Shown here: in pieces, positions 54,963 through 63,684 of the stretch
Layout of the letters: each line of letters opens with the position of its first letter
How positions within the stretch are numbered: position 1 is the first letter of the stretch
Assembly (NCBI GenBank): GCA_019429275.1
Contig: JAHYJC010000001.1
Location: 1 to 64,000, forward strand
Direction of reading: 5' to 3'
DNA: 64,000 nt
Origin: Lentimicrobium sp.
Lineage (GTDB): Bacteria; Bacteroidota; Bacteroidia; Bacteroidales; Lentimicrobiaceae
Program-made: the position numbers and the translations under genes
The notes under the pieces: model-generated
What the model saw: the letters and a program-made list of their open reading frames with translations, nothing else
Told to the model about the DNA's origin: nothing
The model's database searches: none

Positions 54963-56573
54963 TTAGAAACTAATGTCAACGCCCAGAGCTACAGTAAAAG
55001 CTTTGCGGTTATAAGTTTCTTTATATGCAGGATAGGGCGCTGCAGCAGGGAATTCCCTGACATTTTCAAGGTACATGGTATTCATAGCACCCAGGTTGAT
55101 GCCGATATTGTTGGTAACCAGGTAGCGCAGACCAGCGGCAATACTGTTGGTTGACAAACTGTGGCTAAGATCTGTCTGGTAAATATCCATAACACCGGTT
55201 TGAGTGCGAAGATAACCGGCACTCACAAGAAATTTGTCGGTAAGTTCATATTCAACACCAAGTCCAAGTTCCCAGAAATTTTTATCCATTACCTTGTCGT
55301 TCTTAACAAATTCGCCATTAAGTTTTTTGCCGTATCCAGCACCTTTGTCAAAATAATAATGCACGCCAGCACTAATATTTAGTTTGTCGGTAGCTTTAAA
55401 TCCGGCACCAACCGAAAGCATAGAAGGCATATCGCTGGGTGTTTCAGCACCGTCGGGATAAAGTCCGGTTTGATCAACGGTTGTTGAGTTTTTAACATTT
55501 ATACTGGCTTTATGCTCATATTTCAAGCCGATGTTCAGCCTGTCGAAATTGAGGTTTACGCCAATCATGGGAACAAACCCTCCGCCGTTTTGTTTTGCAT
55601 CAACTTCTTTATCTGCAGTAGCAGCAGCATTAGCTGACATTGCCTGAGAGTTAGCGCTGTAGGATGCTGAAGCTCCAACGAAAAAGCCCTGGGTCTGTTC
55701 AATGCTCATATTAGTAGGGTCACCACCAAGAGCAGTAATGGTTGCCTGTAGTGTAGCCACTTCCTGTGCAGTCAGACCAGCATTTGTACCCTGTGACAAA
55801 GGAACACCTCCTCCACCGCCATCAAGAATGGGTTGAAGTGAAGTTCCGGTGGCCTGCAAGGTTGTAGATACTGTTGCAAGATAACCTGATAAGGCAGTAA
55901 AAAAGGCAGGGGCCTTAACCATCTCACCACTATAGTTCAAAGCCGGAAATACAGGATTAATTTGAATATTTTTGAGATAACCTGTATAATGATTGTTCAT
56001 CATTACATAGCGAAGGCCGGCACTTAGTGACAGAATGTCATTGATCTTGTAACTCACTCCTCCCTGAATACCATAGAAAACAGACCTTCCTTCAAATTCA
56101 GTTTCAAAACTGTATTGGGTCGTAGGAATGCCACCGCTGGACAGAGAACCGGGAAGACCAGCCACCAGCATTTCAAATGAAGGAAGTCCATCAGCAAACT
56201 TAGCACTTCCACCGCCACCAATAGGATTAAAGCCCAGTGAAAAGGCAAGTTTGTCCTTTTTATAAACGGCATAAACTGATGGAAATAAAGGTGCAACAAC
56301 ATCGCCCTGAAATTCACTGCGGTTTAATCCGGGAAAAGTAGTTTCTATTGTACGTGTTTGAGTGATGTACTGATTGTTTAAAGAGATGTGAAATCCATCT
56401 TTAAGAAAGACCAATCCGGCCGGGTTATAATAAACAGCATCCAGACCCAGCGAGGCATCACGCACCGGCATCCTTATGAAAGAAGCACTCTGGTTAGTAT
56501 TGTGAACAATACCTCCAGCCATTGAAATCAGTGCCAAAGCACTAAGGGTGATCAAGAGTAGAATCTTTTTCAT
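54963..56573 (-). CDS. OmpP1/FadL-type outer membrane protein
   Basis: 536 residues from the ATG at 56573. A signal peptide (KKILLLITLSALALISMAGG) is followed by the FadL signature ASLGLDAVYYNPAGLVFL and a long beta-barrel (SLNNQYITQT, LSVGAGFKATDKLNISAGVH, ending VALGVDISF). FadL proteins pass hydrophobic molecules such as long-chain fatty acids across the outer membrane. A low-complexity Ala/Ser/Gln-rich loop near residues 230-340 is unusual in length. The longer frame to 56612 is not supported. Confidence 0.92.
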   Translation of the reverse strand: MKKILLLITLSALALISMAGGIVHNTNQSASFIRMPVRDASLGLDAVYYNPAGLVFLKDGFHISLNNQYITQTRTIETTFPGLNRSEFQGDVVAPLFPSVYAVYKKDKLAFSLGFNPIGGGGSAKFADGLPSFEMLVAGLPGSLSSGGIPTTQYSFETEFEGRSVFYGIQGGVSYKINDILSLSAGLRYVMMNNHYTGYLKNIQINPVFPALNYSGEMVKAPAFFTALSGYLATVSTTLQATGTSLQPILDGGGGGVPLSQGTNAGLTAQEVATLQATITALGGDPTNMSIEQTQGFFVGASASYSANSQAMSANAAATADKEVDAKQNGGGFVPMIGVNLNFDRLNIGLKYEHKASINVKNSTTVDQTGLYPDGAETPSDMPSMLSVGAGFKATDKLNISAGVHYYFDKGAGYGKKLNGEFVKNDKVMDKNFWELGLGVEYELTDKFLVSAGYLRTQTGVMDIYQTDLSHSLSTNSIAAGLRYLVTNNIGINLGAMNTMYLENVREFPAAAPYPAYKETYNRKAFTVALGVDISF

Positions 56574-56870
56574 TTGAAGATTTTTTGGTTTACAAAGGCT
56601 AAAGTATGGCAATTATTACATATATCAAAATATTTATCAAGATAGGGTAAGGTGGTAACATGTTCATTAATTATTCACTTTTTTCAGATAATTAAATACA
56701 CACATGCTCAATTGTTGAAGCTGAAAGCATAAAAACAGTATAATCTTTTGATTTACAAATGATCACAATTATTCAGCTTATGAAATAAGACCGTACATGA
56801 GCATTTGAAGGAAGCTCTCAACTGTCAATAAAACCCGGCTTTAAAATCAATTAAGCAGCAGGAGTTTTTT

Positions 56871-57222: not shown

Positions 57223-57903
57223 CTAGTCCAGCCGCCAAACTATCGGCTCAATGCCTTTGGAAACCAGCAACTCATTGGCTTTTGAAAAGTGTTTGCAGCC
57301 ATAAAATCCACGATATACACTCAGGGGAGAAGGATGCGGAGCTTCGAGCACGAAATGTTTCGACAAATCGATCAGCGATTTCTTTTCGCGGGCAAAGTTT
57401 CCCCACAATAGAAACACCAGATTAGCCCGCTCTTCAGACAATTTTTTAATCACCGCATTTGTAAAAATTTCCCATCCCCTACCCTGATGCGACCCGGCCT
57501 GATTGGCCCTGACAGTCAAAGTGGCATTGAGTAACAAAACACCACGCTCTGCCCAGGCTGCAAGGTTTCCTGATTTCGGATATGAAAGTCCGGTATCGGT
57601 TTGTAGTTCTCTGAAAATATTCTGCAGTGATGGAGGAAAATCTACACCTGATGGTACCGAAAAACACAATCCGTGCGCCTGACCATCACCATGATATGGA
57701 TCCTGACCCAAAAGAACAATTTTAACTTTATCAAACGGAGTTTTGTTAAAAGCTTCGAAAATCTGATTTCCGGGAGGATAAATCCTATACTTTTTTTTCT
57801 CTTCGATCAAAAATTCTTTAAGATCCTGAAAATAAGGGCTGGAAAATTCCTCAGAAAGAACTTGTTTCCAGCTTTCATGAATTTGTGGATTTATTTTGTC
57901 CAT
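57223..57903 (-). CDS. ung: Uracil-DNA glycosylase (family 1)
   Basis: 226 residues. The water-activating motif is VLLGQDPYHGDGQAHGL with the catalytic Asp and Tyr. The DNA-intercalation loop is APHPSPLSVYRGF with the catalytic His. LLLNATLTVRANQAGSH and FLLWGNFAREK are also standard. It removes uracil from DNA. Length is normal. It is divergent from the small lipoprotein gene at 58011. Confidence 0.97.
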   Translation of the reverse strand: MDKINPQIHESWKQVLSEEFSSPYFQDLKEFLIEEKKKYRIYPPGNQIFEAFNKTPFDKVKIVLLGQDPYHGDGQAHGLCFSVPSGVDFPPSLQNIFRELQTDTGLSYPKSGNLAAWAERGVLLLNATLTVRANQAGSHQGRGWEIFTNAVIKKLSEERANLVFLLWGNFAREKKSLIDLSKHFVLEAPHPSPLSVYRGFYGCKHFSKANELLVSKGIEPIVWRLD

Positions 57904-57952
57904 TTTCAGTTACATTTTCGAATAAAACGGATAAACAATAAAACTGATTTTT

Positions 57953-57984
57953 TTGAGTTAATAGGTATGAGATGATTATATTTG
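57953..57984 (+). promoter_or_regulatory. Promoter of the 42-residue lipoprotein gene
   Basis: A -33 TTG (57953-57955) within a T-rich run is separated by 21 bases from a perfect -7 box TATATTTG (57977-57984), 27 bases before the ATG at 58011. Confidence 0.6.
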
Positions 57985-58010
57985 CAAAAAAAAACACAAC
58001 GGGTAAAAAT

Positions 58011-58139
58011 ATGAAAAAAATTGCTGTAATGCTATTGATAACATTATCTCTTGGAATTATAATGTCATCGTGCAATTCCACCAAAAAATGCTCTGCATAC
58101 GGTGAAACCGACAAATATAAGGTTGATCGTAACCGCTAA
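58011..58139 (+). CDS. 42-residue lipoprotein
   Basis: The product has a classical lipoprotein signal (KKIAVMLLITLSLGIIMSSC, lipobox MSSC) and a mature part of only 22 residues. That part reads CNSTKKCSAYGETDK followed by YKVDRNR. A second Cys in the KKCSAYGE motif is the only other feature. The gene has its own promoter and a terminator, so it is a real transcription unit and not a by-product of a longer gene. Function unknown. Small lipoproteins with a C-x-A-Y type motif occur in this phylum, but I cannot name the family. It is 100 bases before an outer-membrane protein gene. Confidence 0.8.
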   Translation: MKKIAVMLLITLSLGIIMSSCNSTKKCSAYGETDKYKVDRNR

Positions 58140-58158
58140 GAAAACATTTCTTCTGATC

Positions 58159-58186
58159 AGCCTGTGAACTGACACGGGCTTTTTTT
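58159..58186 (+). terminator. Terminator after the 42-residue lipoprotein gene
   Basis: AGCCTGTG pairs with CACGGGCT (one G-T pair) with a 6-base loop, then a run of seven T residues. The T-run overlaps the -33 region of the next promoter. Confidence 0.85.
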
Positions 58187-58187
58187 G

Positions 58188-58218
58188 TTGATAGCGGCAT
58201 ATTCTTTGATTATATTTG
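58188..58218 (+). promoter_or_regulatory. Promoter of the 58239 gene
   Basis: A -33 TTG (58188-58190) is separated by 20 bases from a perfect -7 box TATATTTG (58211-58218), 21 bases before the ATG at 58239. Confidence 0.65.
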
Positions 58219-58238
58219 TACTCGGAATAAAACAGAAT

Positions 58239-59012
58239 ATGCAACACGTCTTTAAAGTACTTCTACTTTTTTCTACACTATTGCTCTTTTCATCACATTT
58301 AGCCCAGGCTCAATATATTGATGAGAATGAGTATGATCTGACCGGCGACAATCTGCTTTTCAGAAAAGAAATGAGTGGAAGTGGAATCATACATAATAAT
58401 GGCTGGGGAGTTGAATTCAGAATGGGCAGAAATAAAACGTATTTCAAAAAAAATATGTTTGAAGCAAACCTTATTGAAATGCGCAACAGCAAGGAAATCA
58501 AGTCAATAAATCCTTTCTTTACCAATACACGCAGCTATTATTACGGAAAACTTAATGCGGTTTACATGCTTCGCACCGGAATAGGCCAGCAGAGGATGTT
58601 AAACCGAAAACCATATTATGGTGGTGTTGAACTTCGTTTATTTTATTCAGGTGGTATATCTGCAGGCTTCGCCAAACCTGTTTATCTTCACATCATCGAA
58701 CTTGATGAAGGCTCCTACAGATACATTACGATTACTGAACGATATGATCCTGAAAATCATTTTCCTGACAATATTTATGGCAGAGCATCTTTTTTAAAGG
58801 GATTTGATGAACTCGGGTTCTATCCGGGTTTATATGCAAAAGCCGGCTTGAATGTTGATTTTGGCACCCTGAATCAAAGGCCAAAAATCATTGAGGCCGG
58901 AATAGCTTTTGATGCATTTGCAAAAGGAATTCCCATGATGGCTTTTTCGGATCCGAATCAATTCTTTCTCACACTTTATATCAGTTTTGGAATTGGCAAA
59001 CGATACGACTGA
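58239..59012 (+). CDS. Outer-membrane-type beta-barrel protein, unknown function
   Basis: 257 residues from the ATG at 58239. The signal peptide is MQHVFKVLLLFSTLLLFSSH.. ending near AQAQ. The mature protein is rich in alternating strands with Gly/Tyr/Arg (SGSGIIHNNGWGVEFRMGR, FYPGLYAKAGLNVDFG) and ends in LTLYISFGIGKRYD. The pattern is that of a small outer-membrane barrel. A longer frame back to 58185 crosses the promoter and is not used. The function is unknown. It may be co-regulated with the small lipoprotein gene. Confidence 0.75.
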   Translation: MQHVFKVLLLFSTLLLFSSHLAQAQYIDENEYDLTGDNLLFRKEMSGSGIIHNNGWGVEFRMGRNKTYFKKNMFEANLIEMRNSKEIKSINPFFTNTRSYYYGKLNAVYMLRTGIGQQRMLNRKPYYGGVELRLFYSGGISAGFAKPVYLHIIELDEGSYRYITITERYDPENHFPDNIYGRASFLKGFDELGFYPGLYAKAGLNVDFGTLNQRPKIIEAGIAFDAFAKGIPMMAFSDPNQFFLTLYISFGIGKRYD

Positions 59013-59260
59013 GATTCAAGAGATTTGGCAAACAAAATTCCTTTGAGATAATCCACCCATCCAACTTTGATTTTCCAGATCAGATCAGGACGAATCAGGC
59101 ATCTATTTCATAAGGATTCATCTAATTAATTCCAAATTCCTTGCCTTATCCGGCAATCTCCTGAAAATCTGATTCAAAACCAATCCGCAATTCGGGATTG
59201 AATTGAATGAATGAAACATGATAATAATTTCATTCAATCCGTTACCAGTATAATACAAAT
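59013..59260. other. Convergent intergenic gap
   Basis: About 250 bases with no gene. An imperfect inverted repeat (GGATTGAATTGAATGAATG with CATTCAATCC near 59190-59240) is the only structure. A terminator for the opposite strand follows. Confidence 0.45.
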
Positions 59261-59295
59261 AAAAACGCCCGGCAGATTAAGAATTCTACCGGGCG
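59261..59295 (-). terminator. Terminator after the type IX cargo genes
   Basis: On the minus strand, GCGCCCGGTAG and the opposed CTGCCGGGCG form a GC-rich stem with a loop of about 9 bases, followed by TTTTTAT. It lies 19 bases after the stop of the 59314 gene. Confidence 0.8.
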
Positions 59296-59313
59296 CAGAT
59301 AAGAACTGAATTA

Positions 59314-60786
59314 CTATTTTCGGATAATAACCCTGGACATTGCGTTATAATCATCGACCTGTAATCGCAATACATACATTCCATCAGGCAAATCGCCCAG
59401 CTCCAGATTTTTAATCATCCCGGAAGCTACAGGAATTTTGTCTGTAAACCTGACTTTTCCAAGCAGGTCATATAAATTGACTTCGGCAACACCATTCACA
59501 GAATTTTTTAATTTAACATTAATGGTATTTACTGCAGGCACAGGATAAACTTTTATACCATTCTGAACTGAACCCGGATCATCTATTCCAAGAGTAACAG
59601 TCCGGAAGTTCCATGTAGGACTCCAATCGCTGGTATCCCTGCTACTGTTTGCCAGGACTCTCCAATAAAAAACACCAGCACTGTCAAGGACATGAATGGG
59701 AACCTTAAACTGAACATTATTTCCCGAAGTTGGTGAAAGAACATTATACTTGAAAGCAGAGGATAAATCGCTGTTTTTGCCTAATTCCAAAGAATACGAA
59801 AGAGTGCCTGATATTCTTGACCAGGTCAATGAAGGTTGTAAGATTACGTTAGTTGAATTATTTGCAGGACTGACAAGATTTACTGTTGACAGAGTTGTAA
59901 AACTCCTTATGGGCGAAAAAAGTGTATCCTTTGAATGAATTGCGGCCATTCTCCAATAATACTGAGTATTAAAATTCAAAGTATCCGGTCTTGTTCTGGT
60001 TACAGTTTTAAGTGCATTATAAATTTCATAATGCAAAAAATCAGGTTCAGTGGAAATATAGATATTGTACTTATTAACTCCTTTAATTTCGGTCCACTGT
60101 AATTCGACATCCGGAGTCATCCCTACAGCCCCATCAGCAGGCTGACGAAGCGGAAATGTATTAATAATGGTTACGCTTCTCACATCTGACCATTCAGAGA
60201 CATCGGCCGTATGTTGTGCCCTCAATCTCACATAATACGTTTCGCCAAAGTAAAGGTTTGCTGCATTTGCTCTGCCAAGATGGCCGGCAGCATTGAATAT
60301 AGCCAATGCCGGACTATCAAATGTACTTGTCGTATCGAATTGAAATTCAAAGGTATCAATACCATTTATTGATTGCCATTGCACTTCAACGTTACTGTTT
60401 ACCGTAGCGTTGGGGAGAGGTCTGCTAATGGTTGGCCTCACAATAATTGTAAATTTTCTGGTCTCTGTCCAATCAGAACTACCTGTCGGATCAACAGCCT
60501 TTACACGCCAGAAATACACACCGCCAAACATAAGGTTTGAAACCTGATATCTTGTGAGATCGGTTGTAAATTCCGAAGGAGCAGTAAATGCTTCATCAGT
60601 ACTTAGCTGAATCATGTAATACAATCCTGGAGCTCCAACTACCGAATTCCAGTCAAGATCTAACTTGGGTGCAACGCCGGTCAGATTGTTCGAGGGAGAA
60701 ACAAGCTCAGGAGCAGAAATATCCTGAGAAGCCATAGTAAAAACTGATCCTATTGCCAGAACAAGTGAGAGAATTATTTTTTTCAT
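59314..60786 (-). CDS. Secreted FN3-repeat protein with type IX sorting domain
   Basis: 490 residues with a signal peptide (KKIILSLVLAIGSVFTMAS). Four fibronectin type III-like repeats of about 95 residues follow (each opening with a P-x-L/N-x-x-x-x-V/T type strand and closing with YYWRV/YFWRV and W(S/T) motifs). The C-terminal 80 residues are a type IX sorting domain (IKVYPVPAVNTINVKL..., DGMYVLRLQVDD). It should be exported by the type IX system and attached to the surface or released. It lies 51 bases after the 60838 gene, likely in one transcript. Confidence 0.9.
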   Translation of the reverse strand: MKKIILSLVLAIGSVFTMASQDISAPELVSPSNNLTGVAPKLDLDWNSVVGAPGLYYMIQLSTDEAFTAPSEFTTDLTRYQVSNLMFGGVYFWRVKAVDPTGSSDWTETRKFTIIVRPTISRPLPNATVNSNVEVQWQSINGIDTFEFQFDTTSTFDSPALAIFNAAGHLGRANAANLYFGETYYVRLRAQHTADVSEWSDVRSVTIINTFPLRQPADGAVGMTPDVELQWTEIKGVNKYNIYISTEPDFLHYEIYNALKTVTRTRPDTLNFNTQYYWRMAAIHSKDTLFSPIRSFTTLSTVNLVSPANNSTNVILQPSLTWSRISGTLSYSLELGKNSDLSSAFKYNVLSPTSGNNVQFKVPIHVLDSAGVFYWRVLANSSRDTSDWSPTWNFRTVTLGIDDPGSVQNGIKVYPVPAVNTINVKLKNSVNGVAEVNLYDLLGKVRFTDKIPVASGMIKNLELGDLPDGMYVLRLQVDDYNAMSRVIIRK

Positions 60787-60837: not shown

Positions 60838-63684
60838 TTACCTGGCAGTAACAAATTTAGCAACTCGTACACCTGTATCTGAGGTTACTTTCAGAAGATA
60901 GGTACCATTTGAAAGTCCGTCAGCTGAAACCGATATATTCTGATCGCCCCGGAGAACGAAAGTTTCAAGCGATTTTACGAGTGTTCCCCTGAGGTTGAAA
61001 ATTTCAATCTGAATATTTTCATTTTTCGATAGTGACAATGAAAAATTAACTTCAGACTGAACAGGATTAGGGTACACTTTAAGTGTTTTAGAAATCGGTG
61101 AATCTTCAAAATCAGGACCATCGATTCCGACAAAAAGACGATTTTCAAAGATGCCGTTGCCATGAGTTGCAATGTATATAGCTCCGAAATTATTGACACC
61201 AGTATAATTCTCAATCCAAGGCCTTGAAATTGTTTGCTGACGAACCATCATGACAGGGATAGTCCCAAGTCCGGTATTTTCGGCTGACCATGTCGGACTT
61301 GCAGATAATGATTCTGTAGAATAAACGCCAAGCTCTGTACCAAGAATAACCCGACTTGTATTGTTCATTTCGATGATTACTGAATAAACCGGCATAGCGG
61401 GCAAATTGCCCTGAATCGGATTAAATTCCGGATCTGAACTCAAAGCGTTGGTCGATCTGAATACAAACTCGCTATTACCATAATTCCCCAAAGTAACAAT
61501 CACATGATTATCGTTTTTTGGATCAACAGCAATAGAGGTTACATAACGTTGTCCAAAATCTTTAACAATTGAGGTATTGATTATACAGCCGCTACTTCTC
61601 ACATCAGCTCTGATAGAATCGTATGCCAGAGCAACATTTGCAATGCGATAAAGTTTTCCATCAGTTGTTCCAACGTAAACATAATTGGCATCCGAAGAAA
61701 ATGCAAGACTTGAGGGAACTCCAGTTATATTGGCTATCCTGTCCCATGATGGCAAGGAGCTGAAATTCAATATGTTTCTTGACATATAGACAGCATTAGA
61801 AGTGCCAATGAACATCAATGATGAAACAACATCTTTCACCTGCAAGGTATCTCCATTATTCAGTCCAACAGGCAGAGTATATTTAAAGGGGAATTGGTTG
61901 TTTTTACTCCGGGCAATGACAACATCTCCGGCATTATGATTTTTTGTAGCTTTAAATGTTACGCTATCTCTGGAATACACATTATTGAAACTTTCCCATA
62001 ATTTAAATGGTGTAATAAAGTTACCGGAATTTTGATTTGCAACTTCAGCACCATATAAAAATGAGTTGGCTTCAGAAACACCATAGTCATTCGAGCGGAC
62101 CAGCAATCCCCCGGTTGAAGAATAAAAAACTGCTGCAGGGTTTATCATTGACATGTCAACGGTTCCTCCAACAAAATTGCCTAAAATCTGAGTAGCATTC
62201 TCTACTGTGTTTCCCTTTCTGTCGAGATATAACACTCCATTACCCTGAGTTCCACCAAGCGTTCTGCCCATGTCGTCGTAAGCGACAGTGTAAAACATAG
62301 AGGTTTTATAATTTCGGTTGAGAGACTGAACCGATTCAAAGTTATTACTTGTGACACCCACGCCCAAATCATTAGAAAAATAGATATTTTGGGTGTTATT
62401 TGGATTTATAGCAATAGAGTGGATAAGAATTCCAACAAAAGAAGTATTTCTTCTTTCCTGCCATTGATAAAAGCCTGTTTCCTGAATTTTAGTACCTTCC
62501 CAAACAGTAACTCCACCAATAAAAATTTTATCGGGATTAGCAGGACTCACAACAATGCAGCCGGCATATTCGCCATAATTAATTCCGGTAGTTGAGTTTC
62601 CGAATACATTGAACAAAACACTGCCACCGGGGCCTACTATTTTCCAGGTTTCGCCTTTATCGCGGGAAACAAATATTCCTCTTAACTGGCCGCGAAGATT
62701 TCCTGATACGGATCCATCAGAAACCATCATGGCGTAAATTGTTGAAGCATCAGAAGGAGCAAAAGCAACTTCTATCCTGCCTATAGCTTCGTTAGGAAGA
62801 CTATCCTGCCCTGCACCGGTTGAGCGCAAAACGAATCCATCAGAAGTTCCGTTAGATGAAATATAGAGTAAATTGTCGACTGAAGCTGCAATTGCACCGT
62901 CAGGTCCTATCTTTACTTCAGTACTGTTGCCTGATAAATTCTGACTTCCAGATTTGGCAAAAACCCAGTTTTGTCCTCCGTCAGAAGAAAATCTGAGACC
63001 ATTGTTTGTGGCAGCCAGAACAACTCCGTTGTTGCCTGCAGCAATTTTATTAACAAAAGCCCAGTCTGCTGAAGGATTATTGACAGAGCCTGGATTGGTT
63101 GAAGCGAGTTTCGTAAACGTATTTCCATCAGTCGATTTATAAATTCCCTGACCTATAAATCCACTGAATAAATTTAGCCTTTCGCTGGAAAAAGTTTCAC
63201 CAGTACCAACATAAATGTCACCTCCGGGAGCCTGAGTCATACAGGAAACGTTCAGAACATTGTTTCCGGTTTGAACCTGATTCCATGTAAGTCCTCCGGT
63301 TGTTGATTTCCATAACCCTCCTGAAACACTTCCGGCAATAATTGTTTTTGCCGTATTGTCTCTATTATCAATAATTATTGCACGGGTACGGCCGGCTATG
63401 TTATCCGGACCCATTGATGTCCAGTTAAGCCCTATTGCACCCGATGATTTTAATTCTTTAGCCTGATTCCTTGCATTGATAACATCAGCCGGATTGACCT
63501 GACCAGTTACCTGATTTCCTCTCAACTGAGCCATATATGACCAGCCGGCTTTTATGCCGTCGGAGAAAATTTCCGTATCAGATTGTCCCGAAAGATTCCT
63601 GTAAGAGCCGGAAGTTGTGAGCATGAACATACATGCGCCAAAAGTTAATGCAAAGAAACCAAAGAGTAAACTTCTATTTTTCAT
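60838..63684 (-). CDS. Secreted BNR/VPS10-type beta-propeller protein with type IX sorting domain
   Basis: 948 residues. After a signal peptide (LLFGFFALTFGACMFML), the protein has repeated sialidase/BNR-like propeller motifs: WTSMGPDNIAGRTRAI, SGGLWKSTTGGLTWNQV, GIYKSTDGNTFTKL, LRFSSDGGQNWVF and GIFVSRDKGETWKIV. These Asp-box-like SxDxGxTW segments mark beta-propellers of photosystem-II-stability-factor or VPS10 type. The end (about 865-948) is a type IX sorting domain (LKVYPNPVQSEVNF..., SNGTYLLKVTSDTG). No catalytic sialidase residues could be recognised. It probably binds or processes extracellular material. Confidence 0.9.
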   Translation of the reverse strand: MKNRSLLFGFFALTFGACMFMLTTSGSYRNLSGQSDTEIFSDGIKAGWSYMAQLRGNQVTGQVNPADVINARNQAKELKSSGAIGLNWTSMGPDNIAGRTRAIIIDNRDNTAKTIIAGSVSGGLWKSTTGGLTWNQVQTGNNVLNVSCMTQAPGGDIYVGTGETFSSERLNLFSGFIGQGIYKSTDGNTFTKLASTNPGSVNNPSADWAFVNKIAAGNNGVVLAATNNGLRFSSDGGQNWVFAKSGSQNLSGNSTEVKIGPDGAIAASVDNLLYISSNGTSDGFVLRSTGAGQDSLPNEAIGRIEVAFAPSDASTIYAMMVSDGSVSGNLRGQLRGIFVSRDKGETWKIVGPGGSVLFNVFGNSTTGINYGEYAGCIVVSPANPDKIFIGGVTVWEGTKIQETGFYQWQERRNTSFVGILIHSIAINPNNTQNIYFSNDLGVGVTSNNFESVQSLNRNYKTSMFYTVAYDDMGRTLGGTQGNGVLYLDRKGNTVENATQILGNFVGGTVDMSMINPAAVFYSSTGGLLVRSNDYGVSEANSFLYGAEVANQNSGNFITPFKLWESFNNVYSRDSVTFKATKNHNAGDVVIARSKNNQFPFKYTLPVGLNNGDTLQVKDVVSSLMFIGTSNAVYMSRNILNFSSLPSWDRIANITGVPSSLAFSSDANYVYVGTTDGKLYRIANVALAYDSIRADVRSSGCIINTSIVKDFGQRYVTSIAVDPKNDNHVIVTLGNYGNSEFVFRSTNALSSDPEFNPIQGNLPAMPVYSVIIEMNNTSRVILGTELGVYSTESLSASPTWSAENTGLGTIPVMMVRQQTISRPWIENYTGVNNFGAIYIATHGNGIFENRLFVGIDGPDFEDSPISKTLKVYPNPVQSEVNFSLSLSKNENIQIEIFNLRGTLVKSLETFVLRGDQNISVSADGLSNGTYLLKVTSDTGVRVAKFVTAR

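Follow-up and report, generated by a model that had tools for sequence, protein, structure and literature searches.

A very small lipoprotein gene of Lentimicrobium belongs to an undescribed, widespread Bacteroidia family and adjoins a gene for a predicted outer-membrane barrel

INTRODUCTION

LptM (formerly YifL) is a very small lipoprotein subunit of the Escherichia coli LPS translocon, according to the accessible portion of its description (PMC10567701). In Bacteroidota, the outer-membrane lipoproteins BamH-BamK and BamM work with a barrel; the available parts of the two reports on them (PMC12578637, PMC12611786) place them at the cell surface, unlike the periplasm-facing position predicted below for the lipoprotein described here, and describe no 22-residue subunit in the Bacteroidota BAM complexes. 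Against the BamK family, our protein scored 16 bits over residues 1 to 32, below the 120-bit cut-off. The PG1828 family lipoprotein (NCBIfam NF050142) is also small, and 25 of 36 members of the family described here match its model at E values up to 0.1. When ten members were aligned to this 59-position model, seven matched, with matches ending at residues 23 to 31, and the best reached 27.3 bits over residues 1 to 31, below the 50-bit cut-off; the protein that we started from did not match. Across its whole genome, the same model gave 21 matches, none above the cut-off and none at the locus in question.

That locus lies in a stretch of 64,000 nucleotides (here, the window) from Lentimicrobium sp. 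(GenBank assembly GCA_019429275.1, contig JAHYJC010000001.1, positions 1 to 64,000). An initial annotation of the window had drawn attention to a tiny lipoprotein gene beside a gene for an outer-membrane protein. Here we report how this pair compares across Bacteroidia and what the lipoprotein might do.

RESULTS

The features of the locus are the following (window coordinates, strand, and basis).

57223..57903, minus: ung, uracil-DNA glycosylase, the divergent neighbor (NF003589, 332.7 bits)
57952..57984, plus: promoter-like TTTG-N21-TATATTTG upstream of the lipoprotein ORF (pattern scan)
58011..58139, plus: small lipoprotein ORF with a CxAY motif, 42 codons and a stop (ORF call, purifying selection, homologues)
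58011..58070, plus: predicted lipoprotein signal peptide, residues 1 to 20, with the lipid Cys next (read from the sequence)
58071..58136, plus: mature 22-residue lipopeptide (alignments and a motif-free control)
58159..58187, plus: terminator-like hairpin (58159-58180) and T-run between the lipoprotein and barrel genes
58184..58218, plus: promoter-like TTTG-N23-TATATTTG upstream of the barrel ORF (pattern scan)
58239..59012, plus: 257-residue outer-membrane protein, a predicted 8-stranded beta-barrel with no Cys (AlphaFold, fold comparison)

Read by eye, the lipoprotein precursor divides into MKKIAVMLLITLSLGIIMSSC and, after the cleavage point, NSTKKCSAYGETDKYKVDRNR, which begins with the lipid Cys at residue 21. 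It starts with MKK, continues with a hydrophobic stretch and a lipobox-like SSC, and leaves 22 mature residues, which include KKCSAYGE. Cys21 is the predicted site of cleavage and acylation.

Among 20 homologous ORFs of 42 codons, the window's included, pairwise codon differences in frame were 2,311 synonymous and 3,130 nonsynonymous, compared with 560 and 4,978 in one shifted frame and 347 and 5,207 in the other. The window ORF and that of locus L138 gave a dN of 0.151 and a dS of 1.044, and several other pairs were saturated. The tiny ORF is a real coding sequence under purifying selection. Most of our scans required CxAY, so the invariance of the motif in them arises partly by selection; a scan that did not require the motif serves as the control. 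In 68 loci (including at least two contigs counted under two identifiers), it found 53 small ORFs with a lipobox upstream of the barrel gene, all 53 of which carry CxAY. On the opposite strand, these stretches yielded four ORFs, none with CxAY. Rfam had no match at 57800-59300. The gene that had been proposed for a 42-residue lipoprotein, with a 22-residue mature part carrying KKCSAYGE, is thus borne out; it is of the kind prone to be overlooked by length cut-offs.

In the alignments, Cys21, Cys27, Ala29, and Tyr30 are invariant, and the tail beyond Tyr30 varies in both sequence and length. Among 102 unique members picked by the motif, the mature length ranges from 16 to 40 residues (median, 22), the second Cys lies at +6 from the lipid Cys in 85, and the variable position of CxAY is occupied by P in 66, A in 33, and D in 3, the scan having admitted P, A, S, and D.

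The window lipoprotein matched no Pfam or NCBIfam family beyond weak matches to the signal region or chance matches. Pfam LPAM_1 was weakly matched by 12 of 36 members (best E value, 0.0073) and not by the window protein, and 1 of the 36 matched NF047847 with an E value of 0.026. In a PDB sequence search with the lipoprotein profile, all the alignments shown lay in the signal region (best E value, 0.044). Literature searches, mainly of open-access papers, gave no description of the family among the papers listed.

The adjoining gene was said to encode an uncharacterized outer-membrane protein, and the structural model agrees with this. AlphaFold placed the barrel block at a pLDDT of 85 to 99, with 11 strand segments that we read as eight membrane strands plus extra strands between the fifth and sixth; the barrel modeled for a second species is alike. 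Compared with known 8-stranded barrels, the model gave Z scores of 15 to 17, as expected of an 8-stranded OmpA-like fold, and it matched the structures of OmpA, OprF, NspA, OmpW, and PagL at 5 to 12% identity. The closeness to OmpA (1qjp; Z, 15.6; rmsd, 2.7) and OprF (4rlc; Z, 16.5; rmsd, 2.6) extends over 133 aligned residues each, at 8 to 9% sequence identity. Unlike OmpA, NspA, and OprF, the protein joins strands 5 and 6 by a long connection that is well conserved, and it is too short for an OmpA-type C-terminal domain. The common fold says nothing about function. No Pfam family was found for 44 homologues at E values up to 0.1 or for the window barrel at E values up to 1, NCBIfam offered none for the window barrel or its homologues beyond weak or chance matches, and a PDB sequence search gave a best E value of 0.45. 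The barrel is a separate family, likewise undescribed, and a possible, not a required, partner of the lipoprotein.

We examined the occurrence of the two families in the window genome (4.19 Mb in 108 contigs, 96% complete), whose closest named relatives are Lentimicrobium, Lentimicrobiaceae, and Bacteroidales assemblies, and in 40 relatives. The barrel is present in 30 of these 41 genomes, and an ORF with the required CxAY motif lies just upstream in 28 of the 30 barrel loci. A first, narrower barrel profile found the family in 49 of 296 genomes of the phylum. The corresponding narrow lipoprotein profile matched 276 of the 296 at E values up to 1, mostly over residues 1 to 25, in the signal peptide; its matches do not enter our counts.

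Broader profiles detected the barrel in 195 of 246 Bacteroidia genomes at E values of 1e-6 or less and the lipoprotein in 154 at the same threshold, or in 206 at E values up to 1e-3. The 52 lipoprotein matches between the two thresholds may represent signal peptides only and were scored as absent, so the number of genomes with the barrel only may be inflated. From the best lipoprotein matches, 28 additional loci were read, and every one has the motif; the remaining matches are counted by profile score alone. The initial annotation had suggested a motif search in other Bacteroidota, and these counts answer it: the ORF belongs to an undescribed, widespread family of very small Bacteroidia lipoproteins.

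At 1e-6 or less, 129 of the 246 genomes have both families, 25 the lipoprotein only, 66 the barrel only, and 26 neither. Co-occurrence is weak (odds ratio, 2.0; P = 0.034, not corrected for phylogeny), and the 25 and 66 discordant genomes reject a strict dependence of one on the other. The lipoprotein can exist without the barrel, and the two are separable.

The expected conservation of linkage was found as well. Among the 112 genomes in which the places of both genes were among the matches listed, the lipoprotein gene lies within 3 kb of the barrel gene in at least 74; the pairs scored as lying on different contigs may include assembly breaks. Every linked pair has both genes on the same strand with the lipoprotein upstream. 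Of 59 named loci, two were broken off and excluded; in 44 of the other 57, the lipoprotein lies about 1.2 kb or less upstream of the barrel on the same strand. The remaining 13 lack it at that position, one of these having a copy at a distance of 5.6 kb. Six of the 44 show no ung, two of them with fewer than 400 bases of contig upstream.

The ung gene is a comparable neighbor. Of the 83 genomes with both genes among the matches listed, 57 have the lipoprotein and ung in divergent orientation at most 1.5 kb apart. Eight of the 57 carry the barrel at another place, and five (G449, G505, G474, G387, and G456) gave no barrel match. Within the order, two genomes (79% and 95% complete) likewise have the lipoprotein beside ung and no barrel match. 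Among the 28 best lipoprotein-centered loci, ung is present in 26 and the barrel in 22. Eight loci of the order that come from outside the genus (L052-L059) all have the barrel next to the lipoprotein, and one has ung there. In four families (f25, f32, f33, and f34), the lipoprotein has relocated: in 26 loci of the first lipoprotein survey, of which 16 carry the motif as judged by reading, ung is near in none and the barrel in one. An early candidate statement, that ung is the lipoprotein's most faithful neighbor, was dropped, as ung and the barrel are retained about equally.

Motif matches at five loci (L155, L166, L167, L169, and L172) give the order ung (minus), lipoprotein (plus), osmC (minus), barrel (plus), lipA (plus). 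We infer that this order is ancestral and that the window lineage retains ung, lipoprotein, and barrel from it; the genus retains the lipoprotein-barrel pair without an osmC or lipA motif nearby. Among 29 barrel-centered loci, a lipA motif lies downstream in 25, an osmC motif upstream in 23, and the lipoprotein within 1.5 kb in 15. The linkage of lipoprotein and barrel is therefore old and real; it is no more telling than the adjacency to ung, and neither is universal. Three further genes, ung, osmC, and lipA, belong to the same conserved neighborhood, so adjacency gives the barrel no special standing. No lipA match was found in the window genome at E values up to 1e-10, and its three OsmC matches are all on other contigs; the barrel thus does not need lipA.

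Several other features of these neighborhoods deserve mention in their own right. In most of the L209-L237 and L062-L087 loci (the latter read by eye), the barrel gene immediately precedes lipA, the gene for lipoyl synthase, and osmC is divergent. Apparent tandem duplicates, with two same-strand lipoprotein matches starting less than 200 nt apart, occur in at least six genomes (G503:C12, G488:C19, G409:C57, G474:C44, G387:C53, and G443:C40). In six loci of a family with no barrel match (L091-L095 and L098), by-eye reading places the lipoprotein between ribH-like and ytxJ-like genes, with a tail reading YxSYP or YxTYP and with lipA- or osmC-like genes near in several. In the window, a FadL-type outer-membrane protein (PF03349) is encoded at 54963-56612 (minus), and ORFs resembling it, by eye, are seen on the far side of ung in several Lentimicrobium loci. 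Two large secreted-looking proteins are encoded at 59314-60786 and 60838-63684 (both minus), and their C termini resemble, by eye, type IX secretion sorting domains.

The tiny gene had been credited with a promoter and a terminator of its own. For the terminator, an intergenic hairpin with a T-run recurs in 17 of the 18 loci that represent the genus, the window included. The promoter pattern in the window alone is at chance level (8 observed versus 5.1 expected; for TATATTTG, 5 versus 4.8). What favors a promoter is its recurrence: TAnnTTTG precedes the lipoprotein ORF in 26 of 36 loci, the window included, and also occurs in 26 of 36 within the final 60 nt of the gap that leads up to the barrel. 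Random 80-nt windows contain it at a rate of 3.4%.

The two -7 boxes are indeed identical in the window, as had been pointed out, and they are identical in 2 of the 18 loci having both. The presence of TATATTTG at both genes is thus a coincidence, and the co-regulation proposed from it is rejected: in the genus, each gene has its own promoter-like box, with the terminator between them. In a few relatives (L023, L173, L174, and L177), gaps of 1 to 14 nt between the two genes, dependent on the start codon chosen, suggest an operon.

Finally, we considered the side of the membrane. In Bacteroidota, the signal that sends lipoproteins to the surface consists of one polar or basic residue and, after it, two or more acidic residues (PMC5080379). 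None of the 102 lipoprotein members has two acidic residues at positions +2 to +6, and all have at most one. The absence of this signal predicts an anchor facing the periplasm rather than a cap or a surface signal, and the lipoprotein is accordingly predicted to be retained on the periplasmic side.

DISCUSSION

One account of the neighborhood is that the gene order is ancestral and the neighbors have no common function, a reading compatible with any of those below and one that we consider somewhat better than an even bet. The cluster unites unrelated functions (DNA repair, OsmC, and lipoyl synthase), in line with such an account, which nevertheless leaves the conservation of the small ORF itself, and the rise of pairs separated by a few nucleotides, without explanation.

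For the lipoprotein itself, our preferred explanation, held tentatively and at rather less than even confidence, is that it would be a periplasm-facing accessory micro-subunit of some envelope protein, LptM-like and with a lone thiol. The acyl anchor would hold the short tail at a membrane, probably the outer membrane on its inner leaflet. There, Cys27-x-Ala-Tyr30, which lies six to nine residues past the anchor, would dock on a common envelope protein, and the lipopeptide may serve as a small stabilizing or maturation subunit, as LptM does on LptD. With Cys21 acylated, Cys27 is the sole other Cys, so any disulfide would be inter-chain, in a homodimer or with a partner. Counting against this reading, the neighbors ung, osmC, and lipA point to no envelope machine, nor do the ribH/ytxJ-like and gmhB/speA-like neighbors noted by eye.

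A narrower alternative is that the lipopeptide is the dedicated partner of the adjacent 8-stranded barrel, assisting its assembly or plugging it from the periplasmic side. The upstream, same-strand linkage speaks for it, as do the in-order loci that keep the barrel and mostly lack ung, the gaps of a few nucleotides in some lineages, the retention of the pair in the genus without osmC or lipA motifs, and the weak, phylogenetically uncorrected co-occurrence. We nonetheless think it unlikely, at perhaps one chance in several, because each family occurs in genomes without the other and, in the genus, the two genes have separate promoter-like boxes and a terminator between them. Structure prediction placed the peptide with low confidence. 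When AlphaFold was run on the read-through chain of lipopeptide, gap, and barrel (stops entered as residues; alignment rows from the window and named loci, mostly unpaired), the peptide had a pLDDT of 54 to 67, and in a second species it had 59 to 68; placement is judged here by pLDDT and through a linker that contains a signal peptide, and it speaks neither for nor against an interaction. A disulfide between the two proteins is unlikely, since 48 of 57 named barrel homologues have no Cys beyond residue 25 and the window barrel has none.

We give still less credence to a membrane-tethered thiol, in which the single free Cys27 would act in redox protection or sensing. The invariance of the second Cys in the alignments would suit such a role, and so would the company of osmC and lipA in the barrel-centered loci and of ytxJ-like and osmC-like genes, by eye, near the lipoprotein of one family. 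However, osmC and lipA encode cytosolic products, whereas export is predicted for the lipoprotein; the window genome keeps the lipoprotein gene with no lipA match; and a mere thiol would have no need of an invariant Ala and Tyr.

A peptidoglycan tether in the manner of Lpp, in which a C-terminal Lys is the point of attachment, would accord with a small lipoprotein of housekeeping type, but it is very improbable: a C-terminal Lys occurs in 5 of 102 members, the window protein ends in Arg, and the mature lengths fall below that of the E. coli Lpp helix. Least probable of all is the proposal in the initial annotation that the lipopeptide caps, lubricates, or signals through the barrel, which draws on the conserved linkage; the missing export signal (PMC5080379) and the separability of the two families speak against it.

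Two families, one of about 42 residues and one of barrels, thus recur in 154 and 195 of 246 Bacteroidia genomes and match no Pfam or NCBIfam family. The lipoprotein illustrates how length cut-offs can conceal conserved parts of the envelope. If it is an accessory subunit, it would offer a way into outer-membrane biogenesis in a phylum that relies on machines different from those of E. coli.

The closest comparison is with LptM. LptD (PF04453) had no match in the window genome, and the LptM family (PF13627) was not among the 22 families matched by 36 lipoprotein members at E values up to 10, a scan in which HMMER filters discard most weak matches; unlike LptM, the CxAY lipoprotein also has a second Cys. 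LptM binds the LPS translocon, a contact that is hypothetical for the CxAY lipoprotein. A more specific version of the preferred reading is that the CxAY lipopeptide is a convergent Bacteroidia counterpart of LptM that would insert its acylated N terminus and Cys-x-Ala-Tyr into a major outer-membrane machine (the LPS translocon, BAM, or the adjoining barrel) and form or template an inter-chain disulfide during its maturation; in this full form we regard it as improbable.

As with LptM in the available portion of its description (PMC10567701), a conserved stretch follows soon after the lipid Cys and the chromosomal neighbors are conserved. Many members of the lipoprotein family contain the sequence K-x-P-x-Y. 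This sequence resembles the LptM motif, and the CxAY motif lies slightly further from the anchor than the motif does in LptM.
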